DNA from: Thozetella sp. PMI_491
Lineage: Eukaryota > Ascomycota > Sordariomycetes > Chaetosphaeriales > Chaetosphaeriaceae
Assembly (NCBI GenBank): GCA_021432635.1
Contig: MU270127.1
Span: 62,001 to 126,000 of the forward strand
DNA: 64,000 nt
Direction of reading: 5' to 3'
The position numbers and the translations under genes were made by a program. The notes under the pieces are model-generated. The model had not been told where the DNA came from. It ran no database searches and worked only from the letters and a program-made list of their open reading frames with translations. Shown in pieces: positions 44,492 to 64,000 of the stretch. Each line of letters begins with the position of its first letter. The first letter of the stretch is position 1.

Positions 44492-45581
44492 ATGACAAAA
44501 GAGAAGTCGTCAGGCCGCGCTTCCGACCAACCAACTTGGAAGTCCGATCCTGGCACTATTGCAGACGATTCTGCGGTGCAAACTCACTATCATTTTACTA
44601 TTCGGTAAGCGCATTTCATCAAGGCTGTATCTACACGCATAATACCAACCGATCTATAGATCGTCTACGACCTCCCAAAGATTACTCACGCGGCCCCGAG
44701 GTGATTTAGGACCTTCAACGAGTGCAGATCCGATTGATTCACTCACAAGGAGCTCAGAGCTTAGCGTTGGGGATAACATCTCGGCGCCTGGCCCTCAAGG
44801 GACATATGATAATGTGCCGAGCTCAGCCAGCTCGGAGACACTCGTGAGTCGTAATATTGAAGTCTTAGTGGACAGCGCTACAAAAGAAACAGTGTCGGAT
44901 GATCAATCTGCTGTATATCATACGAACAGTACACAGAGCCACGGATCACGAGGATCGGGTTTCAGCGAACCGGCCGACACACCCGTGCCTTCTTTCAACT
45001 ACCCAGCCAGCCTTCCAGGGAACGTTATCCCCCCCGTGGCACCCTTTGCCCCATTGAGGAATGACGTGGCCATAGACATCGTGAACTACGGGCCTCTCTC
45101 AGTGTGTATCCGGAAAGATTGCGAACTCTCATTTATCAACTCGAAGGTCTCCGCACAGCTAGGCCTAGAGACCTATCCGCTTCCCAGGGCGAAACGAAAC
45201 ACTATTTTTACCCCGTTGGGCACCTATGAGGAGCTTGAGGCCTACTCGGTCTTTTTTGCCGACATCAACGCGCTCGGCGTCAAGAACCGCGAGTTTAAAA
45301 TGCTGAACCTCGCGTGGGAGGACAACTCCCTCGCCCAGGTTATCCTTGGACGGAAGCTGCTCCGGAAAATACGGCAAGATATTATGGGTGCTAGCCGTTA
45401 CGGGAGTGAACTTAGCAGTGCTATAGGTCCGTCAATCTGTCTAGTGTCCTGTATCGACTTGCTAGCTACTAACATGCACATGATCTGCAGCCCACGGCGC
45501 CAGTCACAACGCTCTGATACCGCGACAGCATGGCAGCTCGCATCGCAGAACTGCCATGTGGGCGCCGCCGCAGCCCTATGA
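44492..45581 (+). CDS. retropepsin-like (aspartyl protease fold) protein, 3' end unresolved
   Basis: Exons 44492-44604 and 44660-45581 join in frame (GTAAGC...CTATAG; CG|A gives Arg) to 344 aa. The first 180 residues are low-complexity Ser/Thr/Asp. Residues about 195-285 resemble a retropepsin fold: a beta strand, then CELSFINSKVSAQLGLE (the position where active enzymes have a D-S/T-G triad, here not intact), then VILGRKLLRKI, typical of the flap-distal end. The missing Asp triad argues against protease activity. After RKLLRKI the frame enters the repeated segment and may not be genuine protein. The gene may really continue by splicing into the C2H2 gene downstream. Confidence 0.55.
45348..45570 (+). 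repeat. direct repeat, copy 1 (about 220 bp)
   Basis: Runs from GGACGGAAGCTGCTCCGG to CATGTGGGCGCCGCC and is about 88-90% identical by eye to copy 2, about 406 bp downstream. Confidence 0.85.
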
Positions 45582-45753
45582 AATGTCGGAAGGCCAGAGC
45601 AGCCAGCTGCAGAGCCCGACTCAGCTCTCCTCCTCCCGTGTAGAATCCGGCCTCTTCACGGCTGCCTCGGTCCCGTCCACCCTCGGCAGCGACTTTGGCG
45701 AATCCGCGGCCTTCACAAACCCCCCATTTATGTTTGATGAAACTTATATCATC

Positions 45754-45975
45754 GGACGGAAGCTGCTCCGGAATATCCAGCGAGACATTACGGGTGCTAG
45801 CCGTTCCGGGAGTGAACTTAGCAGTGCTATAGGTCTGTCAATCTGTCTACTGTCCTGTATCGACTTGCTAGCTACTAACATGCACATAATCTGTAGCCCA
45901 CGGCGCCAGTCACGACGCTCGAATACTGCGACAGCATGGCAGTTTGCAGCGCAGAACTTCCATGTGGGGGCAGCC
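45754..45975 (+). repeat. direct repeat, copy 2 (about 220 bp)
   Basis: Shares with copy 1 long identical stretches such as GGGAGTGAACTTAGCAGTGC and GTATCGACTTGCTAGCTACT. The unit between the copies is not itself repeated. Confidence 0.85.
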
Positions 45976-47461
45976 ACAAGAGATTCTCTCTTCAGCAGAT
46001 AGACAAACGGAACGCGAATATTCTCCAATCACTTCTCTAATGGAAGAAGCTCCAGATCCAGCGAATGATGATGGAATTTGCAGCCATGGCACGCCTGCTC
46101 CTCCGACGGATGAATCTTTAACAGCAGACGATGATGGGGACGAGAATGACTTTGCTCATATTCAGAACTCAAACCAGATACTAGTTAATACCATTCTGAA
46201 GAGTTTATGCAGGTGGCTGGATTCGAGGCTATATGCTAGTTCCGGCGGTATCATTACTTGCAGTCCTGGCTCAAACGCAACTGCGCCATCTTCATTACGA
46301 CCTGAATTAACAAATGAAGGGCTGCGAAATCTGGAAAATTGCTCTACAAAACGAGCCCGGGGTAGTTCAAGAGATGAAGAAGATGACGATAACTCCTTAA
46401 AGAGGCGCCGGTGGGGTGGCCCGTCTATCGACACAGATGGTGACGCACCGCGACTTGCCTGTCCTTTCTTTAAGAGAAACCCACAGAAGTACGGCACGGT
46501 TCCTACCTGTCTGGGACCCGGATGGACCGAGATACGAAGAGTAAAGTAAGTGTCGGTCCTTCCATCCCAATCATCTGTTCATAGAGTGTTTTTCTCATGC
46601 CGATGGTTACAGAGAGCACCTTTACCGACGACACGCTCTCCCACCCCAATGTCCTCGTTGCTGGTTAGATTTTCGGACAGAGGCCATGCGTGACCGACAT
46701 ATCCAGACCAATCCGCCTTGCGACGTACGAGAAAATAATAGGCTTCTTGACGGGTTCACAAAGATCCAAGAGAAGCGCCTTCGGAGTAGAAAGAAGCTAG
46801 ACACAACCCAGAGCGAAGAGGACAGGTGGAGAGAGATGTACATCATTCTATTTCCAGATGATGACCCTGAAACCATCCCAAGCCCATGTAAGTTCTAACA
46901 CGCAATTCAGGACGTGTACAAAAGAACCGACATCTAATAAGAGACTTAGATTTGGAGGTTATTGACCTTACAAGCCTTCCAATACCGGGAAGCTATGCGG
47001 ATTTTGCAGAATTTAGCCGCAGGGAGTTTCCAGTCTTTGTTCGTCGAGATCTTGAGCTGTCGCTGCAATCCAACGATATCAGTACCGAGAGGGAATTACG
47101 TCAACAGCTGGAAGAGGTGCTTGTAGGCATACAGGCAGGGTTCTTGAGATCTTACGAGCACTTCGTTTCTGAGAGAACGGTAGAGAATCGCGGGGTTCGA
47201 AACATAAGCGGTATATCTTCGAGGCGATCTATGGCTGAACGGGCTCCTATGCAAACACCTGAGACCACGCAAACGGTCGCCCGCGCCCCGGGACAGCCAT
47301 CCCTCGGCTCAAACAATGACGCTCACCAAGCACATCCACTTGTTGACACTGAAAGCGATCTCTTGGAGTTTAATTTCGACTGGGATTCTCCTCTTGGGGG
47401 AACATTTGGTCCACTGTCCGATTTCGATGGCTTCTTCCCTGGACCCGCGAACAAGCTTTAA
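45944..47461 (+). CDS. C2H2 zinc-finger domain protein (fungal family)
   Basis: Exons 45944-46545, 46613-46887 and 46950-47461 join in frame to 462 aa. A Ser/Asp/Glu-rich N-terminus with a basic patch (SLKRRRW, possible nuclear localisation) precedes LACPFFKRNPQKY and PGWTEIRRVKEHLYRRH, then CPRCWLDFRTEAMRDRH and NPPCDVRE. This double-finger arrangement is a well-known fungal family of unknown target. It is followed by a helix (KIQEKRLRSRKK), RWREMYIILFPDD, IPSPY and an acidic tail. The ATG at 45944 sits inside repeat copy 2; the next in-frame ATG at 46040 gives 430 aa. It may be the 3' part of a larger gene with the retropepsin-like region. Confidence 0.75.
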
Positions 47462-47702
47462 TGTTAGTTTCCAAACGTCATGAATCCTCTAAACAGACGG
47501 TGGAAGGGACAAAAAAGCCCAAGTTACTTAACTGCACATGCAATCCTCACATTAAATCTCCCCTTTCTCATCATGTAGTGACTCCAGGCTGTGTAGAACT
47601 GCCCCTTATCCCTCGGTCCTGATATATTTGCGAATGCTCAAAGTATATACACTTGAGTATAGACTGGGAACCATCAAATAATAGCTGGTAGAGAGCCAAA
47701 CA

Positions 47703-48779
47703 TCAGCTTTTGCTAGATGGCAGCAGCACACTTGAGATTTTCTCGTATATGGTGAACACGATTCCTCCGCTCAGGATGAGCCGGCCTAGTCGCATGGTGC
47801 TTCCTTTCCAAAACCCACGCACGCTGCCATCAGCCCATATGCTAGTAGCGGACTCCCACGTGGTTGCGCCCTTGGCACTTTGCGTCCTGCTCTTGATGGT
47901 GTCAAACGGCTGGCTGGCATAGACCGTGACGGTCCCAGCTATGGCACCCAGCCCGAACGTAGTTACGCTGCTCTGCGGAAGATCGTAGCTCTGCCACGTT
48001 TGCTTTAGGATATTGTAAGAGCCCATGCGCACAGCCGACGTTGAACATTGCTTTAGTGTTGTGGAAGCTAGTCCCTTGTAGAGCGTGGCGATACCTTGCT
48101 CCTTAATTAGCATGGCAGCGGCATGCACGCTGGATCGATATTGCTTCGCGCCCCTTGCATCGTCGATCCTGTTGCCATGTTAGCTATGAGGACAGAGGGG
48201 CGGGCTCAATTTTCTCACAGCGCAGTTTTTATTCTTTCTGTTGGTGTTACAGCTGCGACGCTCTCGACAGCGCCGGCTACCATACCAGCGAAGATAGACT
48301 GAAATGCGGTAAGGCGACCTGAATCGTCTGCTAATACATTCTTGATGCTATCAAACGAAGCAAAGCGTACCCCGGCCTTGAGAGCCGTGCCCTGGTGGTG
48401 TATTAGGATGCCTGTGGTTGAGAGTTCTATAGGGGCTAACGGACCACTACTAGGGTTGAGCACCCCACATACAGGCCGCCAATGCCCACATCGGCGATGG
48501 CATTTCTGATAAGAATGAAGGGGTTTGATACGGGCGCAGCAGCAGCAGCCCTAAGTTGGAGTCTAGTTTTGGCGAACTCGAAGGGGTACTGCTTTGGTAA
48601 GCCGTACATCCAGTTCTACTTCTAGGGGAGGTTTGAACACTACACACAGTAATGACGGCTTCGGAAGCGCCAGCAATGGCACCAGAAGCCACGGATATAA
48701 GCGGGGGAACTTTTTGGGCGGCACGAGGCTGGGTCTGGCCTGCGGTCCTAGGCGGAGGAGCTGCGAGTGCTTGTGCCAT
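47703..48779 (-). CDS. mitochondrial tricarboxylate (citrate) carrier, SLC25 family
   Basis: Exons 48779-48648, 48588-48445, 48391-48219 and 48168-47703 join in frame to 304 aa, normal for a six-helix carrier. Each of the three repeats carries the P-x-[DE]-x-x-[KR] mark: YPFEFAKTRLQ, TPTERIKTALIDD and QPFDTIKSRTQS. GAIAGASEAVITYP, VGCSTLVVGTALKAGVRF and MLIKEQGIATLYKGLASTTLKQ are diagnostic of the citrate transport protein subfamily, which exchanges citrate or isocitrate for malate or other tricarboxylates across the inner membrane. Donor 2 is a weak GTCCGT. It is divergent from the Zn2Cys6 gene with a 464-bp spacer holding two TTCCGCGG-type sites. It could be the housekeeping carrier or a cluster paralogue. 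Confidence 0.9.
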
Positions 48780-48959
48780 TGGATGTGCTACTTTGGCAAT
48801 GGGTCTCAGTATCTGGATGTCGACTGCATCGTGCGATACGAGGCATTATTAAGACTAAGAGCGGCTTTAGAGGTCAGCTTTGAAAGCAGGGACGCATATG
48901 CTATCCGCCGACGGCAATTCTGTGGAGATGTCTCGGAGGTGAGAGTTGGAGCTGGCTGC

Positions 48960-48967
48960 TTCCGCGG
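48960..48967 (+). promoter_or_regulatory. candidate regulator site TTCCGCGG
   Basis: Lies in the carrier/regulator divergent spacer as CTTCCGCGGCAA. It contains CCG/CGG half-sites as used by Zn2Cys6 factors. Confidence 0.45.
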
Positions 48968-49098
48968 CAACTTGGCACCTGACTCGAGGCCCCTGCGGGT
49001 CAAACATGGGTTTTAGCGCTGACCTACTTACTACCTTAGGCAACGTTAGGCTGGGAGACAGGGCCAATTGCGGCTTTAACGGCTAGCCGAGCGAGATG

Positions 49099-49106
49099 CC
49101 GCGGAA
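49099..49106 (-). promoter_or_regulatory. candidate regulator site (CCGCGGAA)
   Basis: Second occurrence in the same divergent spacer, inverted orientation, 145 bp before the regulator ATG. Confidence 0.45.
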
Positions 49107-49243
49107 CGGAAGTTCATCTACCCATTCGCCGTAATTCCGCCACCTCCACTTCTGTCCACGAAGGCAACGACACGACCATCTCCCCTCGACAAAATCTTGA
49201 AAGTCCAAACTAGAAAGAAAGCCCGCGGAAGGTTGCGAGCGAT

Positions 49244-51599
49244 ATGGATCCCGGAGCCGATGGCGTAACAACGCACGGTGTCAAGCGGCGCCGAGCGCCC
49301 GCAGCCTGCAGCTTCTGCAAACTGCGTAAAGTCAGTACCGGTTGCTTCCGTCCCGTTGTAATGACAAAGTTTGACCCGGTGGCAGATCAAGTGCAACAAC
49401 GAACAACCAAAGTGTGCCAACTGCAAAACCTACGACAAGGAGTGCGTTTACCTGCCGGCCAAGACGAGAGCGCGTTCTCGATTGCATGCTGTCTCAGCGC
49501 TGGAAGAGTCCTCGGTGCCGGAAATCACAGTCTCCGGAAGCAGTCCTGGGGGTGGTGCCTCGATCCACGCGTATCCTGATGACCATGCCGTGGACATTAC
49601 GCACACACCTGCCACCCCTTCCTCCGCGGAAAGTGCCGGCCAGCTGAGCCGCTTGGATTCTCGGGCCGGCTTTGCAAGTGGCAGTGCCACGACTCCTGAG
49701 ACAACCACGTCCAGTACTAGGGTCGCCGCAACCACTAATTACTATGGTCGGACCAGTGCTCACTTTGAAGAACCCACACCACGCGGTAACCGAGAAATTC
49801 GGAATCCGCCCGAGCGTGTACTGCCTCCGGAGCTAGTAGAGAAGGTCTTGATGGCCGAGGCGGCGCACCAGAGGCAGATGGAGAGCATCAACTTCGCGGC
49901 AGGAAAGCTCGATTTTGACGGGGTTGACCCGGAGCTAGGACTTCATCTGCTTTCTTTGCATTGGAACCGCCAGCACCATTCCTTCCTGCTCACATACCGG
50001 CCGGCATTTATGCGCGATATGGCGTGCGGCGGCAAGTATTTCTCAAAGCTGCTACTCAATGCCATCTACTTCGGTGCCGCAAAATTCAGCCCTCGGCTGG
50101 AGCTCCGGCGAGACCCCGATGACGTGCGCACCGCGGGATGGACGTTTCGGCAGCGGGTTAAGGACCTCCTTGGCGGGGCGCTTGATAGGAGCGAGATTAC
50201 CACCATCCAGGCACTTCTCGTCATGACCAACTCCCTCTTTGCTCTCGGCGATGAGCGCAGCGCCGCATGGCTGTACGCTGGCCTGGCCTTCCGCATGGTG
50301 ATTGATCTCGGCATACATGTCGACCGGCCCTACATCTCAGGATCCAGTGGGCCTTCCGAAGAGGACGTAGAGATCCACAGGCGTGTCTTTTGGGGAGCAT
50401 TTGTTGTCGACAAGATTCAGAGTCTGTATCAAGGCCGCCCACCTAGTCTCCAGGATATCGACACCCAGGTCCCTCTGGTATTCCAGGACCGGTACGAGGA
50501 GCTCGAGTCCTGGACCCCGTTCGCCTTCAACGACTCTGGCAATTACCCCGGCTCGCCCGCATACAGCGTTTCGACCTTCACGGAGCTCTGCAAGCTATGC
50601 GTAATCATGAATCAGATCATCAATAAGCTATATGCGGAGAAGAGCGCGCGGAAACACCCATCACAGCTTCGCGGCGATCTCGAGGTCTTCAAGAAGCAGC
50701 TTGAGGCCTGGAACCGCGACTTGCCTGCACACCTGGTATATCCTTCCGCTGACAGAAACAGAGCTACGCCGGCGCCCCACGTGCTCTCCTTGCAGGCGAT
50801 GTTCAATGTGCTGTTAATTCTCCTGAACCGACCATTCGTATCTGAGGGTCGACCCGAGTCGCAGACGGTGGCTGCCGAGGCTTTTGCATCCTGCGCTGCA
50901 GCTGCCTCGCGCATTGTCCATCTCTTGATGGCCTACGAGCGGGCATTTTCCGTCGCGCGCGCACCATATCTCATATCATATGCCACATACGTTAGTGCCA
51001 CTATCCAGGTCCGGATTGCAGCTCAGCGCCAGCCTGGTTCAGATGCGCATCTGTGTCTGCAGACATGCCTTGCGGTCCTAGAGACAAACCAGGAGACGAA
51101 CTGGGCGGTGAGGAAGGCAACCAAGGTCATTAGAGACCTTGCCGATCGCATGAACGTGGCCGTGCAGCCGGGAAGCTTAATCGCGACGGACAGTCGAGCA
51201 GGAGAACTAGTGGGCTTTCGAGACCGACTTCCGAGGACCGGAGCCGTGGCAGGCTCTCTTTGGCGTGGACGGCCCGACGCGTTACTCGCAACCCCCAGCT
51301 CACAAGAGGATCCATCGGTCACGTCCCGCGAGTTTGACATGAATGCCATCATTCAAAGTTTTATGCAAGAGCAGAGCGACCTGGCAAGTCGAAATAATCC
51401 AACGGGCCAATACGTGGGGGCCTTCCCTACAAGCTTTTCTCCTGGCATTGCTTCCGTTCCGCGGCAAGTGGACCCTTGGCAATCAGCCTCAGACCCACTG
51501 CTCACCGGGGATTTCTTGCCTGATGACGCCTTGTTTGGATTTCATCGTGTGGCTGCGGACCCAAACTGGTGGGGTGACCATCCATGGCCAGGCAGTTGA
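49244..51599 (+). CDS. Zn2Cys6 transcription factor with fungal-specific regulatory domain
   Basis: Exons 49244-49330 and 49386-51599 join in frame to 766 aa. The intron falls inside the DNA-binding cluster, after CSFCKLRK. Joined, the cluster is C-x2-C-x6-C-x6-C-x2-C-x6-C (residues about 22-49), the Gal4-type binuclear zinc motif. A Ser/Thr/Pro linker follows, then the fungal_trans middle homology region (about residues 200-450) with LLLNAIYFGAAKFS, WLYAGLAFRMVIDLGIHVDR and RRVFWGAFVVDKIQSLYQGRPP, which is the diagnostic block. Overall it is reminiscent of NirA-type nitrate regulators and of pathway-specific activators. It sits inside a metabolic gene group and is the natural candidate for its local regulator. 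Confidence 0.92.
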
Positions 51600-51603
51600 G
51601 CTG

Positions 51604-51611
51604 CCGCGGAA
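51604..51611 (-). promoter_or_regulatory. candidate regulator site (CCGCGGAA)
   Basis: Reads TGCCGCGGAAG just after the regulator stop codon, 189 bp upstream of the PrpF start. Confidence 0.45.
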
Positions 51612-51649
51612 GCACGGCCAGCGCGCAGTTGCAGAAGCTGTGCAACCGG

Positions 51650-51657
51650 CCGCGGAA
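51650..51657 (-). promoter_or_regulatory. candidate regulator site (CCGCGGAA)
   Basis: Second site upstream of the PrpF gene (GGCCGCGGAAT), 46 bp from the first and in the same orientation. Confidence 0.45.
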
Positions 51658-51792
51658 TCAGAGGCACGTTCCCCCGGAAGGGGAAGCGGCACCATGAGAC
51701 GCACATATAGGTATATTGATTTACCGATCAGTGCCAAGTGACAATGTGGCCACCAATTCCATTGCTTGCTTTATCCTCTCCTCTGTTAGAGC

Positions 51793-53166
51793 ATGCCTTT
51801 AGCCTCACCGGCTGCCGCATACACTCAAGCTATCCAACCTTGGCGCTTGGTTCCGCAGCTCGCGATGACGGCAGCCATCCAGAGAAGTCGAAGACATAGA
51901 CGGTATGCGGTGCCATCCGTGATGATGCGCGCCGGAACGTCCAAGGGTCTCTTTTTTCGGAGACAAGACCTTCCCGCCGACATGAAGGACTGGTCACCCA
52001 TCATCCTTGGTGCCATGGGCTCCCTAGATAGTGACAAGCGGCAGCTAAATGGCGTTGGAGGTGGCTCCTCAACGACATCCAAGGTCGCCGTGGTCACCCC
52101 GTCGGACCGTCCCGATGTGGATGTCGATTACACGTTCATCCAAGTCCCTGTTGGTGGTGGCAGCCTAGACTTCTCGGGCAATTGCGGAAACATGGTATCC
52201 GGTGTCGGCCCATTTGCCGTCGACGAGGGAATGGTGAAGATAGCGGAAGGAGCTGCCAAGGTAAGGTGAGAATCCGCGTCATTTTAACAGTGTCTAACGA
52301 GAATATAGGCCGACGTGCGCATATTTAATACAAACACTGGGCGCCTCATCGTGGATACGGTAGATTTAGACGAATCCGGAGTTTTTGAGCCAAACGGCGA
52401 CTGCCGTATTGGTGGGTTCAACGGGTTTGGAAGCCGCATCGACGTTAGCTTCGTCGAGCCCGCCGGTAGTATGACGGGGAAGCTCCTCCCTACAGGGCAG
52501 ACAGAGGAAACGATACGGGTTGACTTTGGAGAGCCAGGGACGCATGACATCCGGGTAACGCTTCTCGACGCGGCAAATCCATTCATCTTCGTGGATCAAG
52601 GCAGTCTGCCGGATAACTTGAGTTCGCCTGGTTCAGCCGAGGCACAGGACTGGGTAGAGAAAATCCGACGAGAAGGGGCGGTACGCTACGGACTTGCAAC
52701 AACAACAGAAAATGCCGCTAAGGTTCGCGGCACCCCAAAGATTGCGTTCATACGTCCCCCGGCAGCAGGAAGCAATTGCGACATCCAGGTGCTATCGTAC
52801 AGCATGGGAAAGCCTCACCCAAGCCTACAATTGACTGGCGCGGTCTGTCTCGCGGCAGCCCTCTGTGTACCAGGCACAGTACCTCGGCGGCTCTCTCAGA
52901 AACCCGCGGCTGCTGAGAAATCGCCACCAACACCACCAATGAGCGAGGACGGTATAGAAAACCAGTCAAGCTTGAATACTGATGATATTTTTAACCCTGA
53001 AGCGACAAGGGAGCGAAAGGTTATGATCGTTCATCCTACAGGGGATATTGAGGCAGTAGTCGGCTGGCAGCTCACTACTGATGGCGAGATAACTGTAAAA
53101 TATGTGAAAGTTTTCCGGACGGCCCGAAGGCTGTTTGCCGGCGAAGTGCTTATAGATTTGCCGTAG
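51793..53166 (+). CDS. PrpF/GalD-family isomerase (aconitate-type double-bond isomerase)
   Basis: Exons 51793-52260 and 52309-53166 join in frame to 441 aa. PrpF-family proteins (two-domain diaminopimelate-epimerase fold) move double bonds in unsaturated di- and tricarboxylates: 2-methylaconitate in propionate breakdown, 4-oxalomesaconate in gallate breakdown, aconitate in some fungi. Family marks are PSVMMRAGTSKGLFF near residue 41, the VGGGSSTTSKVAVV block, GGGSLDFSGNCGNM (the catalytic Cys region), RIFNTNTGRLI, IGGFNGFGSRIDVSFVEPAG, LLPTG, DAANPFIFVD, PKIAFIRP and SMGKPHPSLQLTGAVCLA. The first 40 residues are Arg-rich and nearly free of acids, a possible mitochondrial targeting peptide. 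An internal Met at 51865 would remove most of it. Confidence 0.9.
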
Positions 53167-53660
53167 CATGTTGGCGATTAGTTCTAGTTGCATTTTTTAA
53201 AGGAAAAGAAGGAGAGGAATATTGAATTCTGTCACAATATAACGTATGTACAACTAATCGTAGAAAAGAGGGCAAAATCTTACTTGTTCCCTTATATTAC
53301 TAAGGAACTTGTATTTATTAACCGAATAACTGGGAAGTTGTAGTTTAGATCCAGTTCGCACTCTTATTGTTGTGGTTGTCCAGCTGTCGTATACCTCTTC
53401 ACTTAATCGTTGGTCGGAGATCCCCCTTTAGCTCCATTCTTGGTGACCATGGCCCTTCACTGGGGATTCAAGAAGTACACGGCGACTCCAAGAAGGAATA
53501 TTAAGTAGTACTTATCTCTCTTGTATTCGAAGAGGTTCATAATTATTAAATATATAATTTCCTTGCTCGTTTAACCGCGGTTCTTCTATGATAGGGTGCT
53601 GTGTAACCCTTAGAACTGGCTCGCTACCTTACCCAGCTTAAGTAGTGCAAATGGTTCTCA

Positions 53661-53733
53661 AGCTTGGCAGCTTGCCAAGCTAACCGTACTCGTATCTGGC
53701 AGAGCTGGCGCTCAGCTGGGAGCTTCCCCAGCT
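53661..53733. repeat. two short perfect inverted repeats
   Basis: AGCTTGGCA-GCT-TGCCAAGCT at 53661-53681 is a 9-bp stem with a 3-nt loop. AGCTGGG-AGCTTC-CCCAGCT at 53714-53733 is a 7-bp stem. Both share AGCT(T/G)GG arms, so they may derive from one small element such as a MITE fragment. Confidence 0.6.
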
Positions 53734-54020
53734 TCTTTGTGACAAATCTCATGTCACCTTCGTATTCATCTTAGTATTCACGGGCCAATCCTATTGGTCG
53801 ATAGTTGTAGACAAAAGGCCGTTAATGCCATAACGTCGTAGTGAGGTCGTAGTGAGTATCTATCGCCAACACGGCCATTACTCGTCCATCAGCGCAAGCG
53901 AAAGCGAAAACTAAACGCTAAACGAATTTGAACCTACTTCTCTGGTCAAGAGCCATATCGCCGGACTAGGGACGGTGCTTGCCGTCAACGCGTCTCACCC
54001 ACCCTATCCCGACTAATGCC

Positions 54021-54060
54021 GCTCTACTTCCGCGGGAGCTGCTCTACTTCCGCGGAAGCT
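54021..54060 (+). promoter_or_regulatory. tandem 20-bp element with a CTTCCGCGG core
   Basis: Two head-to-tail copies (54021-54040 and 54041-54060) differ at a single base (CGCGGGAGCT versus CGCGGAAGCT). The second contains the perfect 12-bp palindrome CTTCCGCGGAAG at 54047-54058. They lie about 215-250 bp upstream of the permease ATG. Confidence 0.6.
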
Positions 54061-54272
54061 TGACACTGACTCGTATGGAAACGGCAGACCACTTCCCAGT
54101 AGTCTGGTTCCTCCTCACCCCGCAGTCCCCCACAACCCCAGACTTCTGGCGCTTAGAACCTTTCGGAGAAGAGGCTGGGGAGGGAAGAATCCAGTGTCCA
54201 GCAGCGTGAACATAAAAGCAGGCCCTGCACCCATACCCTAGCAACCTTCTATCAATCAACCAACTGCCCGAT

Positions 54273-55938
54273 ATGCGAGCCTCCCAACACAACGAGCTTC
54301 TCGCCGTCCCGGCGCCCAAGGAGGTGTACAACTATCGCGTGTACCTCCTAGCCCTAGTCTCTAGCATGGGCGCCTTGATGTTTGGCTATGACTTAGGCTT
54401 CATTGGTACCGCTATGGTACTCCCGTCCTTCGTGAGGTTTGTTTTGGCTTCCTTGCCTCCGAGCATATACAGTGTCTGGGGCTATGTCTAACTCTGTCCT
54501 TTAGGGACTTTGACCTAACTCATGCGTCAAGTGAGGAGACGGATGCTATTCACGCCAATGTGGTCTCCCTCCTCGTTGCGGGTTGTATCCTCGGCTCGTT
54601 GATTGCTGGCCCGTTCAGCGACCGCTTCGGCCGCATCAAGAACCTCTTGCTCCTCTCAATCCTCTTCGTGGTAGGCTCTGCTATCCAGACCGGCTCTCGT
54701 GGTTCATACGTAGCTATGCTGGTTGGACGGGCCATAGGCGGCATCGGAGTCGGCATGGCATCCATGGTGGTGCCTATCTACGTTGCTGAGCTGTCACCGC
54801 CGGCGATCCGGGGCCGGCTGATCGGGATATACGAGATCTTCGTCTCTGGCGGCACGCTTATAGGCTTCTGGATCAACTACGGGCTTGCCCAGAACGTCCC
54901 CAACACAAGCTCGGCACAGTGGGAGGTTAGCTTTGGCGTGCAACTAATACCGGGTGGATTGCTAGTGCTCGGCTTGGTTTGGATGCCCGAATCACCTCGC
55001 TGGCTCGCCCGCCATGCAGATCGCGAAGCGTGCCTCTCTGTTCTTTCCAAGTTGCGAAAGCTTCCTGCGGACCACCCTTACATCATCGAGGAATCTACCG
55101 CCATCTTCAACCAGATTGCGTACGAGGAGTCCTTGGTCGGCCCCACCGGTTTCGTGCCAACACTGAGAGAGATGGCCGAGCCTAGCAACCGCAGACGCTT
55201 GGTCATTGGCGTTTTCTTATTCGTCTTCATGCAGATGGCGGGTTCTAACGCCATCAACTACTACAGCCCTACCATCTTTAAGTCGATAGGCGTGACCGGC
55301 ACCTCGACCGGTTTGTTTGCAACAGGTATCTATGGCTTAGTGCGGTTTATCGCCACTATGATCTCGATGTTGTGGGTCGTTGATCGCTTCGGACGCACGC
55401 GCATGTTGATGGGCGGAGGCGCCATAATGGTAAGTATCCGTCGGCATGTTATCAATGCTACCCGGCTGACGCTTGACAGGCTTTCGCACTTTGGTTTATT
55501 GGAGTATACGTCAAGGTCGCCAGCCCCGGAGCGGGTTCTGTTGACGCCGGCGGCTATGCTTCCATCGTCATGATATATGTGTACGCCGTTGGCTGGTGTT
55601 TCTCGTTCGGTGGTGTGCCATGGATTATTGCGGCCGAGATCTTCCCGCTTCGCATCCGTGGCGCCTGCATTTCGGTATGCGTTGCTACCCACTGGATCAT
55701 GAACTTCATGATCGCACGAGCCTCGCCGTATATGCTGGCGAATATAACGTACGGAACTTATTTCCTATTTGCCGCATGTACTACTCTGTCTGTGCCTTGG
55801 GTATACTTTTTCGTGCCAGAGACCAAGAACGTTAGCCTGGAAGATATGGACCGCCTCTTCGGGGTCGAGGTGTTCGCAGAGGAAACGGATGTGGAAAAAG
55901 CGGCCGTTACGCAGTTGGAGGAAGTACCGCATGTATAA
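54273..55938 (+). CDS. MFS sugar/quinate-type permease
   Basis: Exons 54273-54436, 54505-55429 and 55480-55938 join in frame to 515 aa with twelve membrane segments. Sugar-porter marks are present: GALMFGYDLGFIG in segment 1, the loop-2 motif GPFSDRFGR, GRAIGGIGVGMASMVVPIYVAEL, RGRLIGIYE, PESPRWLARH before the central loop, QMAGSNAINYYSP in segment 7, DRFGR after segment 8, and PWIIAAEIFPLRIRG then PETKNVSLEDMD at the C-terminus. Opening with YNYRVYLLALVSSMGALMFGYD it most resembles the quinate permease (QutD/Qa-y) branch. It is expected in the plasma membrane, importing the cluster substrate or exporting an acid. Substrate is inference. Confidence 0.9.
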
Positions 55939-56660
55939 TACCAAGGGAACTGGCAGCCGGGGAGGGCCACGGCTTGGGGGCCGAGTCCCGCAAACCTCCG
56001 TAGAAACCCATCTGGTATTTGCACTATATTCATCTTGCTGAGGAATCTATCATGATATAGTTATACACTTCCTGCCTGTTTCGAGTGATACCGCTCCTAT
56101 TGCGTGGCTTGACCGCGAGCAACGGCTACAAACCAGCCATAGCATCGTAAACGCACGTATTCTGCATGTACAATTATATACCCCTTTATTTTTCATTATT
56201 AAATACATTAACCGTAACCTTTCTTTTTAAGAGGTGTTGGAGCACACGGGGGCAATACGACCAAGCAGGTTTGGCTTGACGAGGCTTCTCACTTAGAACA
56301 GGTAGACCGGTGCGTGGCACGAGTCAACAGCCCGGCCGACGTCTGCTTTATTACCCTAGCTAGCACTTTCGATTCAAATAGGTAGCAATATTGAGCGCAA
56401 GTGGGTCAATCATTTTGGAGCCGACGATCCGTAGAATTACTTTCAATAACTACGTGGAAAAGAAATGGCTCAGTGTTCGAACAAGTCCATTTGTTGGCCC
56501 GGTTCTGTCATAATCTTACTCAAACTCTGTCGTTGCCCTATTTGGTGGTTTGTTGCTATGTATTGGTATTTCGTTCCGCACCCTGGTTTAGTTAATGGGA
56601 ATACGTCCTCCGCAGGATGTCGCCCGCCTCTGATCCTCAGCAATACCACCCGTCAATGAT
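55939..56660. other. convergent intergenic region
   Basis: This separates the ends of the permease and the dioxygenase-like gene. An AT-rich patch is at about 56160-56230. No coding region was recognised. Confidence 0.45.
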
Positions 56661-58431
56661 CTAAACAGGTTTGTTGCCAAGTCCAGGCAGCCCAGCAGCG
56701 GCGAGCTTGGTATTTACAGTGTCAAGGTGATCCATAAAGTGTCCCTGAAGATCGTCCCAAAATTCGCCCTCGTATCCAGGTATACCTGCGAGGGACAGTT
56801 AGTAATAGAATAGTGGCTAGAAGACAAGGCTATCCTCACTTTTAATGTTAGGGTTCCTTTCCAGTGCAAACTTCGTGAGGCTAAAGTGGTTGTTTATATG
56901 GAGCATGAAGCCTGAGAAGAAATATGGTGTTAGTCAGCGAAGATTTTAGCTTGCCGTTCAGTACTTACTCAAGGCGCCCTCGCCCTGTATCTCCGTCTCC
57001 AAGGGCCGAGTAGTAGCTTCCTTCCACGCACTATACGCGTCTCCATGAGGCATGTACGAGTTCTCGCAGCTCAGGCAACCTGATTGAACATCGCGTACGG
57101 AACCGTGATATTCGCCGTATATCATACCCAGCATCTCAGTGGATATGTTCCTGTGGTAGTATGGCGGTCGGTACGTGTCAAGAGCTGAGATATACTTTGG
57201 TGTGTACACCGCGAACTCTGACAGAGAGACTTTTGGTGTCTTGGACTTGGCCAGCAGGACGGTGTAGATGGTCGGATCGCACTGCTCCTTCATACCGCAA
57301 GAAAGGGGAGTGAACTTTTCCATGGCGTACTTGAAGGGGGCATAGCTTCCATGCCAGGCCACCACGTCAAAGGGAGTGTGGCGCTGTGTATATGCAAACA
57401 TTTTCCCTGTAAGTTTGTATACGACTGAGGCCAGGTTAGCACTGCCCATATGCCCCGCGGAAGTTACAACAGCCTACCTTGCCACGTGGACTGGTCCATA
57501 TCGAAGGAAGCTACCGGATACTCAAAGTCTCGACGATGGGCCAGGCCGTTGGAGCCAATAACGCCAAGGTCCGGAAGTTCGAAATGCGAACCAAACACTT
57601 CATGCACGTAACCGCGAGCTGGCCCATCCGGCAGGCTGATTCTCCATCGAAGGCCGGCTTGGATGACACAGAGCTCTCCCGGCCGCACCATCAGTCTCCC
57701 CAGCTCGGTTTGAATGTCCAGTCGGCCAATCTGGGGAAGGATCAGGAAGTCGCCGTCGTTGTTGCAGAATGCTTGGCGCTCCATCGACGCATTGCATGCA
57801 TATAAATGCATGGCAACGCCCTCCTTCGCAACCGGGTCGCCGTAGCCGCCGATGGTTTTCAAACCTTGGATGAATGTGACTTGCTCGCTCTCCTTGGGCC
57901 ACTCGAGGGGGCCCCACTCATATGTTAAAGGGGTGAACGTAACGTTCTCGTTGAAAGGTGTGAAGCATGCCTCGATCTTTTTCTCTTGTTAGAACCCAAT
58001 TTTCAGCATATTATAGGATTCATATTTTGGCAGACTTACGTCAGGGTTTGGTGGTAGTGCATACGGTCGAGAATGGGCAACAGCAGGACGAATGCGGTAC
58101 ATCCACACATGCTGCAGCGTATCTCTGTACGACACAAAAGGCGTCCCATTCAACTGTTCCGAAAACAAATCGTATGGGCATCGCTGCGGTACGTTTCTCC
58201 CGGGCTCGGGCAAAGCATCGGGCCTGGCATGATTGCGTTGTTAAAATCGCGGCTGTACGACAATAGACTCAATACATACACAGCCTCCGACGAGAAGTGG
58301 TTACCGAAGCCGAGCTGGTACCGGTATGGATCGCGCTCTCTCGGAGGCGTCGTCCGTGAGCCGGCAGCCATGGCTCCGAATGTGTTCTCCTCCACCACCA
58401 CTGGCGAGGACAGCGTCGAGGCGTCGCCCAT
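56661..58431 (-). CDS. homogentisate 1,2-dioxygenase-like ring-cleaving enzyme
   Basis: Exons 58431-58280, 58223-58040, 57976-57478, 57406-56969, 56911-56840 and 56785-56661 join in frame to 489 aa, longer than the usual 440-450. Homogentisate dioxygenase is a cupin Fe(II) enzyme that opens its ring to maleylacetoacetate. Family blocks seen are YRYQLGFGNHFSSEA at the start, PEPGRNVPQRCPYDLFSEQLNGT, WMYRIRPAV, GLKTIGGYGDP, a cupin core with FCNNDGDFLILPQIG and ARGYVHEVFGSHFELPDLG, and GKMFAYTQRHTPFDVVAWHG. Both ligand positions are kept: His and Glu in YYHRNISTE, His in MPHGD. The C-terminal GYEGEFWDDLQGHF segment and SGCLSCENSYMPHGDAY differ from true HGO as I know it, so a paralogue with another aromatic substrate is likely. 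Confidence 0.88.
57455..57462 (-). promoter_or_regulatory. CCGCGGAA site in an intron of the dioxygenase-like gene
   Basis: The eight-base motif lies inside intron 3 (57407-57477), reading CCCCGCGGAAG. It may be coincidental. Confidence 0.25.
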
Positions 58432-59074
58432 CTTGCTCAATTGGGACTTAGAACCGTGCCAAGGCTGTCTGCGGGATGGCGTGAGGTAGGGAGAAGGACA
58501 AGCACAACACTCCACAATCAAGGTCCAATGTGCTTTTTCTTGGAGATCACTCTCGGTATCTCGAATTGAGGCGGGCGTCGGCTTTACTCCTATATTCCAT
58601 CTAACGGGAGTTTCCTACCGAACATGGTGTGTGGATCCTCGTACGCAGAGGATAGTGTTGTTATCAGGAGTGGATACTGAAGTAGTTGGGCCAGCCGGCC
58701 GGCCGGCCGGTAGCTCCCTGGCTCATCCCCTGTAGATGTGGGCCGCCCCCCTCCTCCTTATCAGATAGAAATGCACACTTGGCTTGCGCTATCGTCGAAT
58801 CGTGGACCCGGTTCCGCCAAGCTGGTAGTGTCACGGAGGCAGTTTAGCGGCTCCCCAGTTTCCGACTGCTCAATATCATCGTTGGATTGATAATCGTCTC
58901 ATTGTCAGTGGTGCCTCTCTGCGAAGGCTGTCCTATTCAACTTCGACGTCCAGCAGCACTGACAGATCGCCTCCAAGGCGCTCCGCTGCAATGTTAGCGA
59001 ACAACACTCTGCCGGGCAGCCTCGAGAGCTGGCAGTCCCATAATCTCTGGACCTCGCAGACTGTTGCCAGCATC
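58432..59074. promoter_or_regulatory. divergent promoter of the dioxygenase-like gene and the P450
   Basis: Outward-facing starts lie 643 bp apart, so the two enzymes are probably co-regulated. A GGCC-reiterated run (CCGGCCGGCCGGCCGG) lies at about 58695-58710. The TTCCGCGG motif found in the other cluster promoters was not seen here. Confidence 0.5.
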
Positions 59075-61100
59075 ATGGAGCCATACACCTCCCTGTCCCC
59101 ATCTACGAAAAGGGTTGCGACGCTAGCAATCGGACTGTTTGGGTTATTGATCTTCAATCTCTTAAAGAGAAGCGTAGGAAAGAAATATCCTTGTCCACTC
59201 CCACCGTCGCCCCCGTCAGAGTTGTTTCTCGGCCATCTTCGCAGCCTCCCATTAGAAAATGTCCATCTCAAGCATCTGGAACATGCCAAACAATTCGGTA
59301 AGCAGCTGCTGCACCGGAAATAGAGGTTTTGCTCCCTTCGGCTGACACGCGGGCTCACAATGTTCAAGGCTCCGATATTGTGTCTTATAACGTACTTGGG
59401 AACCACATGGTAGTGCTCAATAGCCAGAAAGTAGCGAACGAGATCCTCGACAAACGAGGTGCCAACTACCAAGATCGGCCTAGATTCGTTCTATTCGACG
59501 TCATGGGCTGGGGCTTGACGCTCACATTCTTGCCGTACGGTCCACGGTTCAAGCTGCATCGTTCGGCGCTGCAGACCGGCTTCACGAAGACTGCCATCGT
59601 CAACTACAGAGCCATCCAAGAGGATGAAGCCAGGCAGGCCGTGGCGAGAATTCTAAAGAAGCCCGACAATTGGGATTTCTCTCTCAGGAGGTAGGCAATA
59701 GTACCCTCGCGGCCGGGTAGAAGCGTAACTTTTTGCCTTGGTACACAGAACTAATGGGTGGCGGCCTAGGTTTGCCTCGGCGATCGTTCTTCGTATCGGA
59801 TTTGGCGTTGTTGTCAAGTCGGATGACGATAAGTATATCAAAATTGCAACCGATGCGAACATGGCGACAGCCCAGGGAGGGAACCCTGGGACTGCCTTGG
59901 TCGACTACTTCCCTTTGCGTAAGCACTTCTCAAAGCCCACAAGCGGGGAATTGTCCTCTTCCTCTAACCGGCGCAGTCCGTTTTATCCCGGATATTATCA
60001 ACTTTTCGGGCACTCTGAAACACGCCCGCAACTGGCGATGGGCCATCAAGAACTTGCACGACATCCCATTCTCTGCAATCAAAGCCGAATTCGTGAGCAT
60101 TTCGTTCCGTAATTTTTGATGTCTTACAGACTGGCTAAACTACAATTCGATCTAGGACCAAGGCACCGCCAACCCGTCGTTTGCTTATTCGCTTCTAAGC
60201 AAGTTCACCCACAATGAAGAGAACGGCATCCCAAACCACTTCACAATGAAAGACATCCAGGGGGCATCAGGTTCCGTCTTCATTGCTGGGTCCAACACAG
60301 TGAGCTAGTTCAGAAGTGGTCATTGGGAAATCAGCTACTGACGTGATATCACAAATCTAGACACTCGCGACAACCACGGTGGCGCTCCTGAACCTAATGC
60401 AGAATCCAGACGTATTCCAGAAAACGCGGAGCGAGATTGACAGAGTTGTTGGGTTAGAACGGCTGCCATCGCTTGCCGATAGGCCCAATTTGCGATATAT
60501 CGACTACTTAGTCGAAGAGACGACGCGATGGCGGCCCCTGTCGCCGATTGGTATCCCGCACAAATCTATCAAAGACGATATATACAACGGCATGTTCATT
60601 CCCGCAGGGTAAGTTTCGTCATTTTCTTGCTCTGCTGCTTGTCTCCTGACCATCTGTTAGAACATTTGTTTACTACAATAACTGGGCTATGAGTCGGGAC
60701 ACCCAGATCTACAAAGACCCAGAGCTCTTCAATCCCGATCGGTATACACCGAAGGAGGAAGGAGGCGCCGGGGAGCCCTTCTTGGTAGGACCGTTCGGAT
60801 TTGGTCGCAGGTATGTTTCCACGACATTTATTCGTCGTCTGACCCAGAAACTAAGGCATGGTCATCAGAATTTGTGTCGGACGCCATCTAGCACAAGCGT
60901 CTGTATGGATTGCGGTCGCCACCATGGTAGCTACCATGGATATCACCAAGCCCCTTGGGCCGGATGGAAAGCCGATTGACCAGAAGATTGTGTTTAGCAC
61001 GGGGCTGTCCAGTCATCCGGGCAAATTCAATGTGGCGTTCCGTGCGAGAACACCAGAGGCTTTATCCTTGCTCTCGGAAGCTGTGGGGGATGCACAATGA
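59075..61100 (+). CDS. cytochrome P450 monooxygenase
   Basis: Eight exons (59075-59297, 59369-59690, 59770-59918, 59977-60092, 60156-60299, 60361-60608, 60661-60810, 60869-61100) join in frame to 527 aa. An N-terminal anchor (residues about 13-29, VATLAIGLFGLLIFNLL) precedes a proline hinge (CPLPPSPP). The I-helix reads AGSNTT where most family members have AGxDTT. ExxR is in VEETTRWRP, and the haem-binding loop is FGFGRRICVGRHLA with the axial Cys. The overall type resembles fungal O-methylsterigmatocystin oxidoreductase-like P450s. It diverges from the dioxygenase-like gene, suggesting hydroxylation of the same aromatic or acid substrate. An ATG at 58991 would add 28 residues; I preferred 59075 for its usual P450 N-terminus. 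Confidence 0.92.
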
Positions 61101-61560
61101 GGATCTCAACATGACATCACGTCTTATCATGAAAGGTTGGGGAAGGTTCGAGGGGATGTATGATCCAGGTACCTTTAACAATATACTAGAAGTCGTGTGA
61201 AGTTAGGCTAGAGAGGAAGACGGGCCCAATTGGAAAGATGCATCTTGCAACATGTCTCGTGGCATTATGTCCCGTGTACATACATTTCTTCCCCATAGTC
61301 CTCAGCTGATTACAGATGTTTTAGATGGGAGGGAAAGAGATGAGGTGTCTGATTATGAAAAGCCAAGTTTTGAGCGGCTGGGGGGGCTCTAGTCGTAAAA
61401 TTGGAAAAAATGTGTCGTGGTCAGGGCTGCCGATTCTTGATTGCTCAGATTATGTGGAGCGGCCTACTATTTTTATTTAACCTGATTTACTGACCTAGCA
61501 CAACTTTGTTCCTGTTTCGGCAAGCCTATGTAACTATTCAACTACGGCCCATATACCTGT
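61101..61560. other. P450 3' flank, transition to AT-rich DNA
   Basis: The GC content falls progressively. No coding region was recognised beyond the P450 stop. Confidence 0.5.
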
Positions 61561-64000
61561 TTAAAGATAAATATATTAGCCCCTTCCCTCTGCTCTAGTA
61601 TTTCCTTGTCTTTCTCCTTCTTCCTCCTATTTTTAAGCATGTTATACTGTCTAATTATTATTCTTTACTACTTCTTCCTAGTTTATTCTTCCTCTCTTCC
61701 TCTTACTCTTACTTACTCCTCTACTAACCTTCTACTACCTCTGTCTGCCTAAATTAATCTTTTTATCTCTATTCCTTCTTTTATTCCTAGGAGTTTTTAC
61801 TTCTTAGCTCTAGCCTTAATACTACTTTTATTATACTATTAGGTGCTTAAATTTTTAATTTTTATATTTATTATATCTTTATTAGTATATTAAGGCTAGT
61901 GTTATAACTTATTTATTTTTTTATAGCCTATTTAAAACACTCTTTTTAACTAAGGCTTTAAAATACTTAGTATATAATAAGGCTGCTTAATAATTATTAA
62001 GATAGTTTAATTATTATAATACCCTAAGTAAGTCTTAGGGGGTAAAAGCTCAGCTATAAGAAGAGGAATATATTTAGTGCTAGCACTAAGGCTGTAACAG
62101 AGACTAATCCTTAAGGTCCTCAAGTTTAAGGCTTTTAAGGTTCCTACTTATATAAGGGAAGGGTTCTCTTTTTAGATTTAGTCTTAACTTAGCTTTAAAT
62201 CCTTTATATTTCCTGCTTAACTCTTAAGCTGCTTATAGTTTATACTAGAGTTATACTAGCTATTCTTTCTTACTTAAGAACCTTTTAAGTTTTACTTATA
62301 GCTATATACTTTATTATAAAGCTATATACTTTAGGGCGTTATAATTATCTCTTTTTTTAATATAACTATCTTTAATTATAATAAGGTTTAGCTAGGTAAT
62401 TATAAGGACTTCTTTAGGTTTTAGGTGTAAATATAATATAATTTAAGTTAGGTTACCTTAGTAAATTATAACATTATAATTATTTTATTTTATTAGCCCC
62501 TTAACTTTTTAGCTTTATTTTACCCTAGGTGTAAAAACTCTTTCTTTTCTTTTTAAAATCCCTTAATAATCACTTCCTTTTTGCCTTTAGTTTACTATTT
62601 TTATACTAATTGCCTTAGTTCTTTTTATTATTATTACTATATTTTCCTATAATTTCCTTTTAATTTACTATTAAAATAAAGCTAGTTACTCTTACTCTTA
62701 AGGATATCCTACTTTATAGTAAGGCTATTATTTTTTAACTAGATATAACTAAAAAAAATAAGGTAAAGCCTTTAACTTTACTTTTTAAAAATATTAACTC
62801 CTTATATTATACTTCTTATAAGAAGAGTAAGGAGTTATATAAATTAGTAGAGTTTTTTATCTAGATCAAAGGTTTTTTAAGATAGTTTTACTAATAAAAC
62901 CCTTAATAAGTTCTTATTATTATCTTAGATAATACCTTGTTTTTATTTAAGTCTTTTAAAGAGACTTTTAATATTATTAAATACTATTTAATTAAAGAGC
63001 TAAGGCTTTTTATATATATTTCTAATAAAAATAAGGTAATTATAGTTTAATATAAGGTTATTAAGCTATTTATAATATATATTGCCTTAGCTTTTTATAC
63101 TTTTATAACTACTTATAAAAAAGAGTATAAACTTTTAAGTATTAAGAAGCTTAAAGTATAGTTTATAAATAGTAAGGCTTTCCTAGAGAAACTCTTTTAA
63201 TTAACTTTAATTTCTAAGGTACCTCTTAAGAGTATTATTAGTTTATATATAAGTAATATATTCTTTTTATTTTATTATAGTCTTTAAACTAATACCTTTA
63301 TTAATTTTATTATAAGTCTCTCTTATTTTAATATTATTTTAATAGTACCTTATTAATATATTTTTATAAGATAATAGCTATATAATTATATTTAACTAAG
63401 AGTTAAATATTTTATCTTATAATATAATTAAGAATAAGAGTATAATAGTTTAACTATAGGCTTATAAGTACTTTAATAAGTATATAGATAAGATATTTAT
63501 AATATATCTAAAGGATAATAAGGCTATTTTTATATAGATTTATAATAAAATTATTATAATTTCTTTAGTCTTTAGTTATTATAATCTTATTACTCTTAGT
63601 AATACTTATTATTAAACTATCTTTTTTAATAATAAGTAGATTTTTAGCTTTATAGCTTAGCTTTATAATAATATTTTTAACACTTAATACTTAAATATTT
63701 ATATAGTTTTAAGTAGTTTTTACTATTATTAGTCTTTTTTAATTACTTAGATAAGTATAGATTAACTATATAGTTAATAATTATAATCTTACTTTTTAAT
63801 ACTAAGATCTTTAGGTAATACTTTTTTATAACTATTAAGTATTATCTATAATTTACTAGTATTTTAACCCTCTTCTCTTTTTCTAATATACCTTAATAAC
63901 CCCTTAAATATTTTATATATTCTTAATAAAAACTTATTAATTATATTTTATAGGTTAGTTTATTTATTTAACTAAGTAGAAGACTTTATTATCTTTAATC
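61560..64000. repeat. AT-rich, RIP-like block reaching the window end
   Basis: The sequence is dominated by A and T, with TTA/TAA/TAT trinucleotides throughout, almost no CpG, and no open frame of useful length on either strand. This is the pattern of RIP-mutated transposon DNA in Pezizomycotina. Scattered phrases such as AAGGCTATTA recur but no terminal repeat or transposase can be recognised. The block starts abruptly about 460 bp after the P450 stop and continues past the window. The original element is not identifiable by eye. Confidence 0.8.

Follow-up and report, generated by a model that had tools for sequence, protein, structure and literature searches.

The genome of the fungus Thozetella sp. 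PMI_491 (72.3 Mb in 157 contigs, cited here as C6, C107 and so on) contains a row of six genes, encoding a mitochondrial carrier of the citrate (tricarboxylate) carrier family, a Zn2Cys6 transcription factor, a PrpF-family isomerase, a major facilitator superfamily (MFS) transporter, a homogentisate-dioxygenase-like enzyme and a cytochrome P450, and the question raised by this locus is whether these genes serve a single pathway. They occupy positions 47703-61100 of a 64-kb stretch, C113:62001-126000 of a contig of 138,766 bases, which is called the window below. A preliminary description of this DNA had taken the six genes for one coherent set, devoted either to the catabolism of an aromatic acid or to the production of an organic acid with the gene set of Ustilago. 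We find that they look like two units, namely unit A with the carrier, regulator, PrpF and MFS genes (47.7-55.9 kb), and unit B with the dioxygenase and P450 genes (56.7-61.1 kb). Our preferred reading, to which we assign a probability of about 0.4, is that unit A is a regulon for the utilisation of trans-aconitate or a similar acid, and that unit B beside it is a hydroquinone-type ring-cleavage cassette.

All six genes are intact, as each spliced model gives a single frame with a terminal stop only, and no further gene was recognised between them. Their 19 introns were placed by hand, all of them with GT..AG borders and two with the weaker acceptor AAG. The products match their Pfam families above the cut-offs, with 176 bits for Mito_carr in the carrier, 37 for Zn_clus and 102 for Fungal_trans in the regulator, 281 for PrpF, 413 for Sugar_tr in the MFS protein, 337 for HgmA_N and 93 for HgmA_C in the dioxygenase, and 239 for p450; the gene calls and coordinates of the preliminary description are therefore borne out.

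What sets the two units apart is a promoter motif. The 8-mer CCGCGGAA has 12 distinct sites on either strand of the window, ten of them within 47461-61300 and the other two at 20913 and 39046. Seven of the ten lie in promoters of unit A, i.e. three (48960, 49099 and 49223) in the divergent carrier/regulator promoter (48780-49243), two (51604 and 51650) in the PrpF promoter (51600-51792), and two (54028 and a palindrome at 54048) in the MFS promoter region (53167-54272); two more are in the coding sequence of the regulator gene, including one at 51457 in the end of that gene, and the tenth is in an intron of the dioxygenase gene. The counted matches in the carrier/regulator, PrpF and MFS regions were reached by 0, 1 and 0 of 1,000 dinucleotide shuffles per region, respectively, the MFS count being 3 in this test as the palindrome is scored on both strands. 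In an unbiased scan of all 8-mers over the four promoter regions, CCGCGGAA came first with 7 sites, while the highest number that any 8-mer attained in 500 shuffles was 4. By contrast, the divergent dioxygenase/P450 promoter (58432-58990, 559 bp) lacks the motif even when one mismatch is allowed, so that of the coherent set proposed earlier the four genes of unit A appear to hold together, but the dioxygenase and P450 genes probably do not join them.

At the scale of the genome, the flanked form TKCCGCGGAA yields 116 + 124 = 240 strand matches (palindromes counted twice), compared with 201 + 206 = 407 for a control pattern read backwards. The window contains six of these strand matches (five sites), all within 5.1 kb (48960-54057), where 0.36 would be expected in the whole window and none of 100 shuffles reaches six. 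At 38 loci of the same genome outside C113 (163,303 bases, overlaps kept), CCGCGGAA has 7 matches. The CCG-CGG core of CCGCGGAA is an everted repeat with zero spacer, an arrangement that has precedents among Zn2Cys6 proteins, e.g. Pdr1, and the Zn2Cys6 protein of unit A (49244-51599, plus strand, 766 aa, PF00172 and PF04082) is likely the local activator that binds it.

Unit B, on the other hand, is found again elsewhere. Its dioxygenase gene (56661-58431, minus strand, 495 aa) and its P450 gene (58991-61100, plus strand, 8 exons, 555 aa) form a divergent pair that is present at three loci, in the window and on C107 and C20, with intergenic distances of 559, 800 and 475 bp, respectively (starts chosen by eye). 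The facing P450s on C107 and C20 are 47-49% identical to the window P450, and are among its nearest relatives in its own genome; both C107 genes are open frames without introns, in contrast to the dioxygenase and P450 genes of the window with five and seven introns. No match to the four unit A genes was found in the flanks of these pairs; both sides were covered at C20, but only one at C107, as that contig stops 178 bp beyond the dioxygenase match. No 8-mer is common to all three dioxygenase/P450 promoters; that of the window has a short run of CCGGCC palindromes at 58691-58710, a possible site of another regulator. A further relative of the P450, on C91 (54% over the best piece), has no dioxygenase in its 3.6-kb locus. 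The PDB relatives of the window P450 were uninformative about its family, the best chain being CYP17-type at 140 bits, and its I-helix (exon 5, 60156-60299, into exon 6) reads AGSNTT, as against AGQDTT in the C107 and C20 proteins, with Asn in place of the usual acid.

As the motif separates unit A from unit B, and unit B is found elsewhere without unit A in the flanks seen, independence of the two units is our first choice, and the question then becomes what each of them might do. The genome holds nine loci of the homogentisate dioxygenase (HGD) family, which is many, because most of the fungi reported in PMC8336404 have two or three HGD homologues, and two of them have four. In a tree of this family two clades are split at 100/100, one with the C45, C15, C27, C26 and C49 members and the human enzyme, and the other with those of the window, C107, C20 and C92 together with PDB 9pz4. 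This PDB chain, named 'homogentisate 1,2-dioxygenase', is nearer to the window enzyme (452.9 bits) than the human enzyme is. Against the HmgA equivalog model TIGR01015 (cut-off 510.75), the window and C107 enzymes reach 441.9 and 470.5 bits, both below the cut-off at near full length, while those of C45, C15 and C26 pass (605.9 to 641.4) and that of C49 fails; C27 was scored on one exon only, and C20 and C92 on partial frames. The iron ligands H335, E341 and H371 (human numbering throughout) are kept in 11 of 11 rows. The outer-shell residues His292 and His365, which have been proposed as aids to substrate deprotonation (PMC4019311, available part), are His/His in C45, C15, C27, C26 and the human enzyme, Glu/Asn in C49 and His/Gln in 9pz4, and are replaced by Gln/Glu in all four members of the window clade from this genome.

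The window enzyme thus has both HgmA domains and all three iron ligands in common with HmgA, but lacks both outer-shell His, scores below the cut-off and has no fumarylacetoacetase neighbour, such as is seen at three other loci; by score, clade, residues and neighbourhood, an ordinary tyrosine/phenylacetate HmgA was rejected. Those three loci are divergent HmgA/fumarylacetoacetase-like pairs on C45, C15 and C27, recognised by eye, in addition to six other HGD-family loci. An HGD-family enzyme other than HmgA is known to open methoxyhydroquinone, namely MhdA of A. niger (PMC8336404, as far as the available text goes), which makes a hydroquinone-type ring-cleavage cassette the natural reading of unit B. 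The likeness to MhdA, also an HmgA paralogue and ring-cleaving dioxygenase, is at the family level; its neighbour is the carboxylesterase gene omeA, whereas the neighbour here is a divergent P450. The fourth member of the window clade, at C92:159970-168004, adjoins an FMO-like (Baeyer-Villiger-type) monooxygenase and a Fe-dependent dehydrogenase; for one piece of the latter the best PDB chain is 'MAR1', and two maleylacetate reductase chains follow lower in the list. That locus is a possible hydroquinone pathway cluster, to judge from its genes, and the 12 kb around its dioxygenase gave no match to the window P450.

In unit A, the carrier (47703-48779, minus strand, 4 exons, 304 aa, three PF00153 repeats) is not the sole member of its family in the genome, because relatives occur on C32 (37% identity), C11 (42 and 47%, in two pieces) and C6 (39%). 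The preliminary description had named a carrier that was the only citrate carrier of the genome as an observation that would tell against a dedicated gene set, and this is not what was found. The C11 carrier ends in RLARLIMSGGIVFTMYEK...RLDPERKYL, from which we take it to resemble the housekeeping fungal citrate carrier. The MFS protein (54273-55938, plus strand, 515 aa) scores 413.7 bits against the sugar porter model TIGR00879 (cut-off 237.8). Sugar porters are mainly an importing family, and import is therefore favoured over export.

The PrpF-family protein (51793-53166, plus strand, 441 aa) has one other match in the genome, on C13, with 39% identity over 360 aligned columns; in a tblastn search of the 10 kb around that copy with the six window proteins, PrpF was matched and the other five were not. 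The Lys of its TSK and the Cys of its SGNCGN align with K73 and C107 of the Shewanella PrpF, whose catalytic roles are described in the available part of PMC5690661. Its best PDB chain is a 3-methylitaconate isomerase (192 bits), and in a tree of 26 rows it lies outside both the gallate-context and the AcnD-context clades, joining the C13 copy and a protein of Sagittula stellata. An assignment as the 4-oxalomesaconate tautomerase GalD is hence unsupported, the protein lying outside the GalD-context clade and reaching 262.4 bits against a cut-off of 440. The first 44 residues of the long model (51793-51924) include six basic and no acidic ones, and the N-terminus possibly serves in mitochondrial targeting, or else the protein may start at Met25 instead.

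The bacterial relatives of this protein are found in several contexts. Three of the first four plasmid relatives are annotated, two of which are accompanied by parts of a tripartite tricarboxylate transporter and an MmgE/PrpD gene, and the third, on a plasmid of Sagittula stellata, belongs to an operon of the order LysR - TRAP receptor - CoA transferase - cupin - FAH family - prpB - PrpF. Seven further plasmid relatives, taken for the tree, comprise two in a gallate/protocatechuate context, two beside AcnD, one in the order LysR - PrpF - TctC, one with aconitase-family genes and one among unrelated genes. In a set of 28 bacterial relatives (genome_contigs, found by sequence), a TctC-type solute receptor is present within flanks of up to 5 kb in 13, which speaks for our preferred reading, and a PrpB-like lyase in 7. 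The Sagittula operon is in itself an unexplained bacterial pathway, tying a possible ring-cleaving cupin to a PrpF isomerase.

Under our preferred reading, the regulator would control the promoters of all four unit A genes, its own included, by binding their everted CCG-CGG sites. The acid imported by the MFS protein would be an unsaturated tricarboxylic one, with trans-aconitate as the likeliest candidate. PrpF would shift its double bond to give cis-aconitate, by an allylic isomerisation through the conserved Lys/Cys pair, and the citrate-family carrier would hand the product to the mitochondria for the tricarboxylic acid (TCA) cycle; another unsaturated di- or tricarboxylate would be an equally possible substrate. 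Unit B would be an aromatic cassette of which the genome has three copies, and its P450 would oxidise an aromatic compound, yielding a hydroquinone-type diol whose ring the diverged HGD-like enzyme would then open.

A bacterial precedent exists for the first of these routes. The tar system of Bacillus velezensis consists, according to the available part of PMC11495376, of the regulator TarR, the PrpF-superfamily aconitate isomerase TarA and the MFS importer of trans-aconitate TarB. Unit A likewise has a regulator, a PrpF-superfamily isomerase and an MFS transporter side by side, but it is fungal, its regulator is of the Zn2Cys6 and not the LysR type, its MFS protein is a sugar porter, and it has the mitochondrial citrate-family carrier in addition. 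It may thus work as tar does, with the added organelle step that a eukaryote requires, since tar plus a mitochondrial tricarboxylate carrier would make a complete eukaryotic route. A word search of PMC11495376 found no mention of fungi or eukaryotes, and no fungal cluster of this make-up was found in a library of open-licence papers, judged mostly from titles; gene 275 of Arthrobotrys proved unrelated. We would propose, only tentatively, that unit A is a self-regulated eukaryotic counterpart of tar with its own citrate-family carrier, lying beside a duplicated cassette whose HGD-like enzyme has lost both outer-shell His and cleaves a hydroquinone other than homogentisate.

Fungal clusters for small acids resemble the locus in part. 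The itaconate/2-hydroxyparaconate cluster of Ustilago maydis, as far as it is described in the available text of PMC4720413, shares with it a citrate-family mitochondrial carrier (mtt1) and a PrpF-family isomerase (Adi1, with an equilibrium of 88% trans), both at the family level, and an MFS gene and a P450 are present there too, the P450, Cyp3, being of family CYP504. Its regulator Ria1 is a basic helix-loop-helix protein and not one with Zn_clus and Fungal_trans domains, and the closest homologue of its transporter Itp1 is EmrD (Table 1 of PMC4720413), whereas the MFS protein here is a sugar porter. The preliminary description had been in doubt whether rdo1 belongs to the same dioxygenase family; it does not, because Rdo1 has 180 aa and a Salmonella colonisation factor as its closest homologue (same table), compared with 495 aa and HgmA domains here. 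Furthermore, the Tad1 model TIGR02426 has five matches in the genome, the strongest on C46, and none on C113, in agreement with the earlier remark that no tad1 is seen in the cluster. On these four features, rdo1, ria1, itp1 and tad1, the six-gene match to Ustilago was rejected, and of that earlier reading the mtt1 and adi1 likeness is what stands. A cluster of the CadA type was rejected as well, as PF03972, the family to which CadA presumably belongs, has six loci elsewhere in the genome and none on C113. The A. terreus itaconate cluster cadA-mttA-mfsA (PMC4235043, available part) is alike in placing a mitochondrial tricarboxylate carrier and an MFS transporter around a single small-acid enzyme, which is the cis-aconitate decarboxylase CadA there and PrpF here.

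Several observations weigh against our preferred reading. Sugar porters are not known to transport tricarboxylates. The PrpF protein falls below both NCBIfam cut-offs, with 262.4 of 440 bits for the 4-oxalomesaconate tautomerase (NF033377) and 200.2 of 441 for PrpF, and its position in the tree is weakly supported (89/79 and 81/84), so that any assignment of its substrate is tentative. Its nearest bacterial row is that of Sagittula (42% identity), where the cupin and the FAH-family gene of the operon would be in keeping with an aromatic route. The count of TctC-type receptors near the bacterial relatives has no control set. The motif was picked after the sequence had been viewed, although this leaves the results of the unbiased scan and of the genome-wide count untouched, and its core CCGCGG is common in the window, with 18 sites in 1-47460 and 13 in 47461-61300; at this length of six, 32 of 500 shuffles contain a 6-mer that equals its 8 promoter sites, and the rare form is the flanked one, not the bare core. 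Unit B ends 722 bp from the MFS gene, and since one CCGCGGAA sits inside the dioxygenase intron, at 57455, it is perhaps not fully outside the regulon.

The short gap of 722 bp, the motif in the intron and the operon of Sagittula leave room for a single aromatic pathway as a rival, in which the MFS protein would import an aromatic acid, the P450 and the dioxygenase would open its ring, PrpF would isomerise the carboxylated ring-opened product and the carrier would take a tricarboxylic product to the mitochondria. The uninterrupted row of six genes would agree with such a pathway, and mitochondrial carrier genes of Candida parapsilosis are induced on hydroxybenzoates (PMC5144973, available part), but it leaves the motif-free dioxygenase/P450 promoter, the recurrence of the pair on C107 and C20 without the other four genes in the flanks seen, and the position of PrpF outside the gallate-context clade to be accounted for. 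The aromatic catabolism envisaged earlier fits the dioxygenase/P450 pair, but there is no sign that PrpF and the carrier act on the product of that pair. The classical hydroquinone products are moreover dicarboxylates, for which a tricarboxylate carrier is unneeded, and we consider the six-gene pathway rather unlikely.

We would call it unlikely, too, that unit A runs in the opposite direction, as a relative of the Ustilago cluster that lacks Tad1 and in which the carrier exports cis-aconitate from the mitochondria, PrpF converts it to trans-aconitate and the MFS protein secretes the latter. This organic-acid production is in keeping with the mtt1/adi1-type gene pair, with the carrier and MFS genes of A. 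terreus, and with the tbr system of Bacillus thuringiensis, a mirror image of tar that makes and exports trans-aconitate (PMC11495376, available part), but it would need an exporter where there is a sugar porter, not EmrD-like as Itp1. An unlinked Tad1-family enzyme could carry trans-aconitate on to itaconate, and the genome's candidate for this further step, with its family assignment drawn from sequence, is a CMLE/Tad1-family gene at C46:94783-95857. Its protein scores up to 363.5 bits with Tad1 chains and 322 with CMLE, but 495, the highest of the three, with 3c8t ('fumarate lyase'), and its main piece falls below the PcaB cut-off (276 against 356); no CCGCGGAA was found in the fetched stretch of this gene, and on C113 the decarboxylase families TIGR02426 and PF03972 are unmatched. 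An apparent P450 start was noticed by eye downstream of the C46 gene.

Finally, the six genes could lie together by chance, in a dynamic region flanked by AT-rich DNA, with the motif shared only because the regulator controls three of them for unrelated reasons. They are indeed the last genes before an AT-rich block, which begins near the P450 gene (about 61500-64000) and reaches the contig end, with 14-24% G+C from 62 kb on, a TpA/ApT of 1.5-1.6 and a (CpA+TpG)/(ApC+GpT) of about 0.1, i.e. a signature like that of repeat-induced point mutation, which would fit a filamentous ascomycete; unit B also has copies elsewhere. Yet the motif is much denser here than chance would give, and unit A with its four genes would provide a complete three-step route, so we regard mere coincidence as improbable. 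No tandem TTAGGG was found in the final 12.8 kb of C113. On the other side of the cluster, six unspliced open reading frames (41.7-47.5 kb) gave no Pfam match at E 0.01, and in this gene-poor flank a stretch of about 80 codons (45340-46000) is present twice in overlapping frames as a direct duplication, reading GRKLLR..I.QDI/QRDI..GASR.GSELSSAIG.

Should unit A indeed be a regulon for trans-aconitate, it would mean that fungi have a specialised route for feeding on this plant acid, which is found in maize, sugarcane and sorghum (PMC13188880) and which inhibits TCA-cycle enzymes (PMC4720413, available part), and CCGCGGAA would be a handle for finding the regulon in other fungi. Unit B would offer a clean case for asking which residues set the substrate choice of the HGD family, as four paralogues, three of them facing a P450, retain the same iron site with the proposed acid/base residues replaced.

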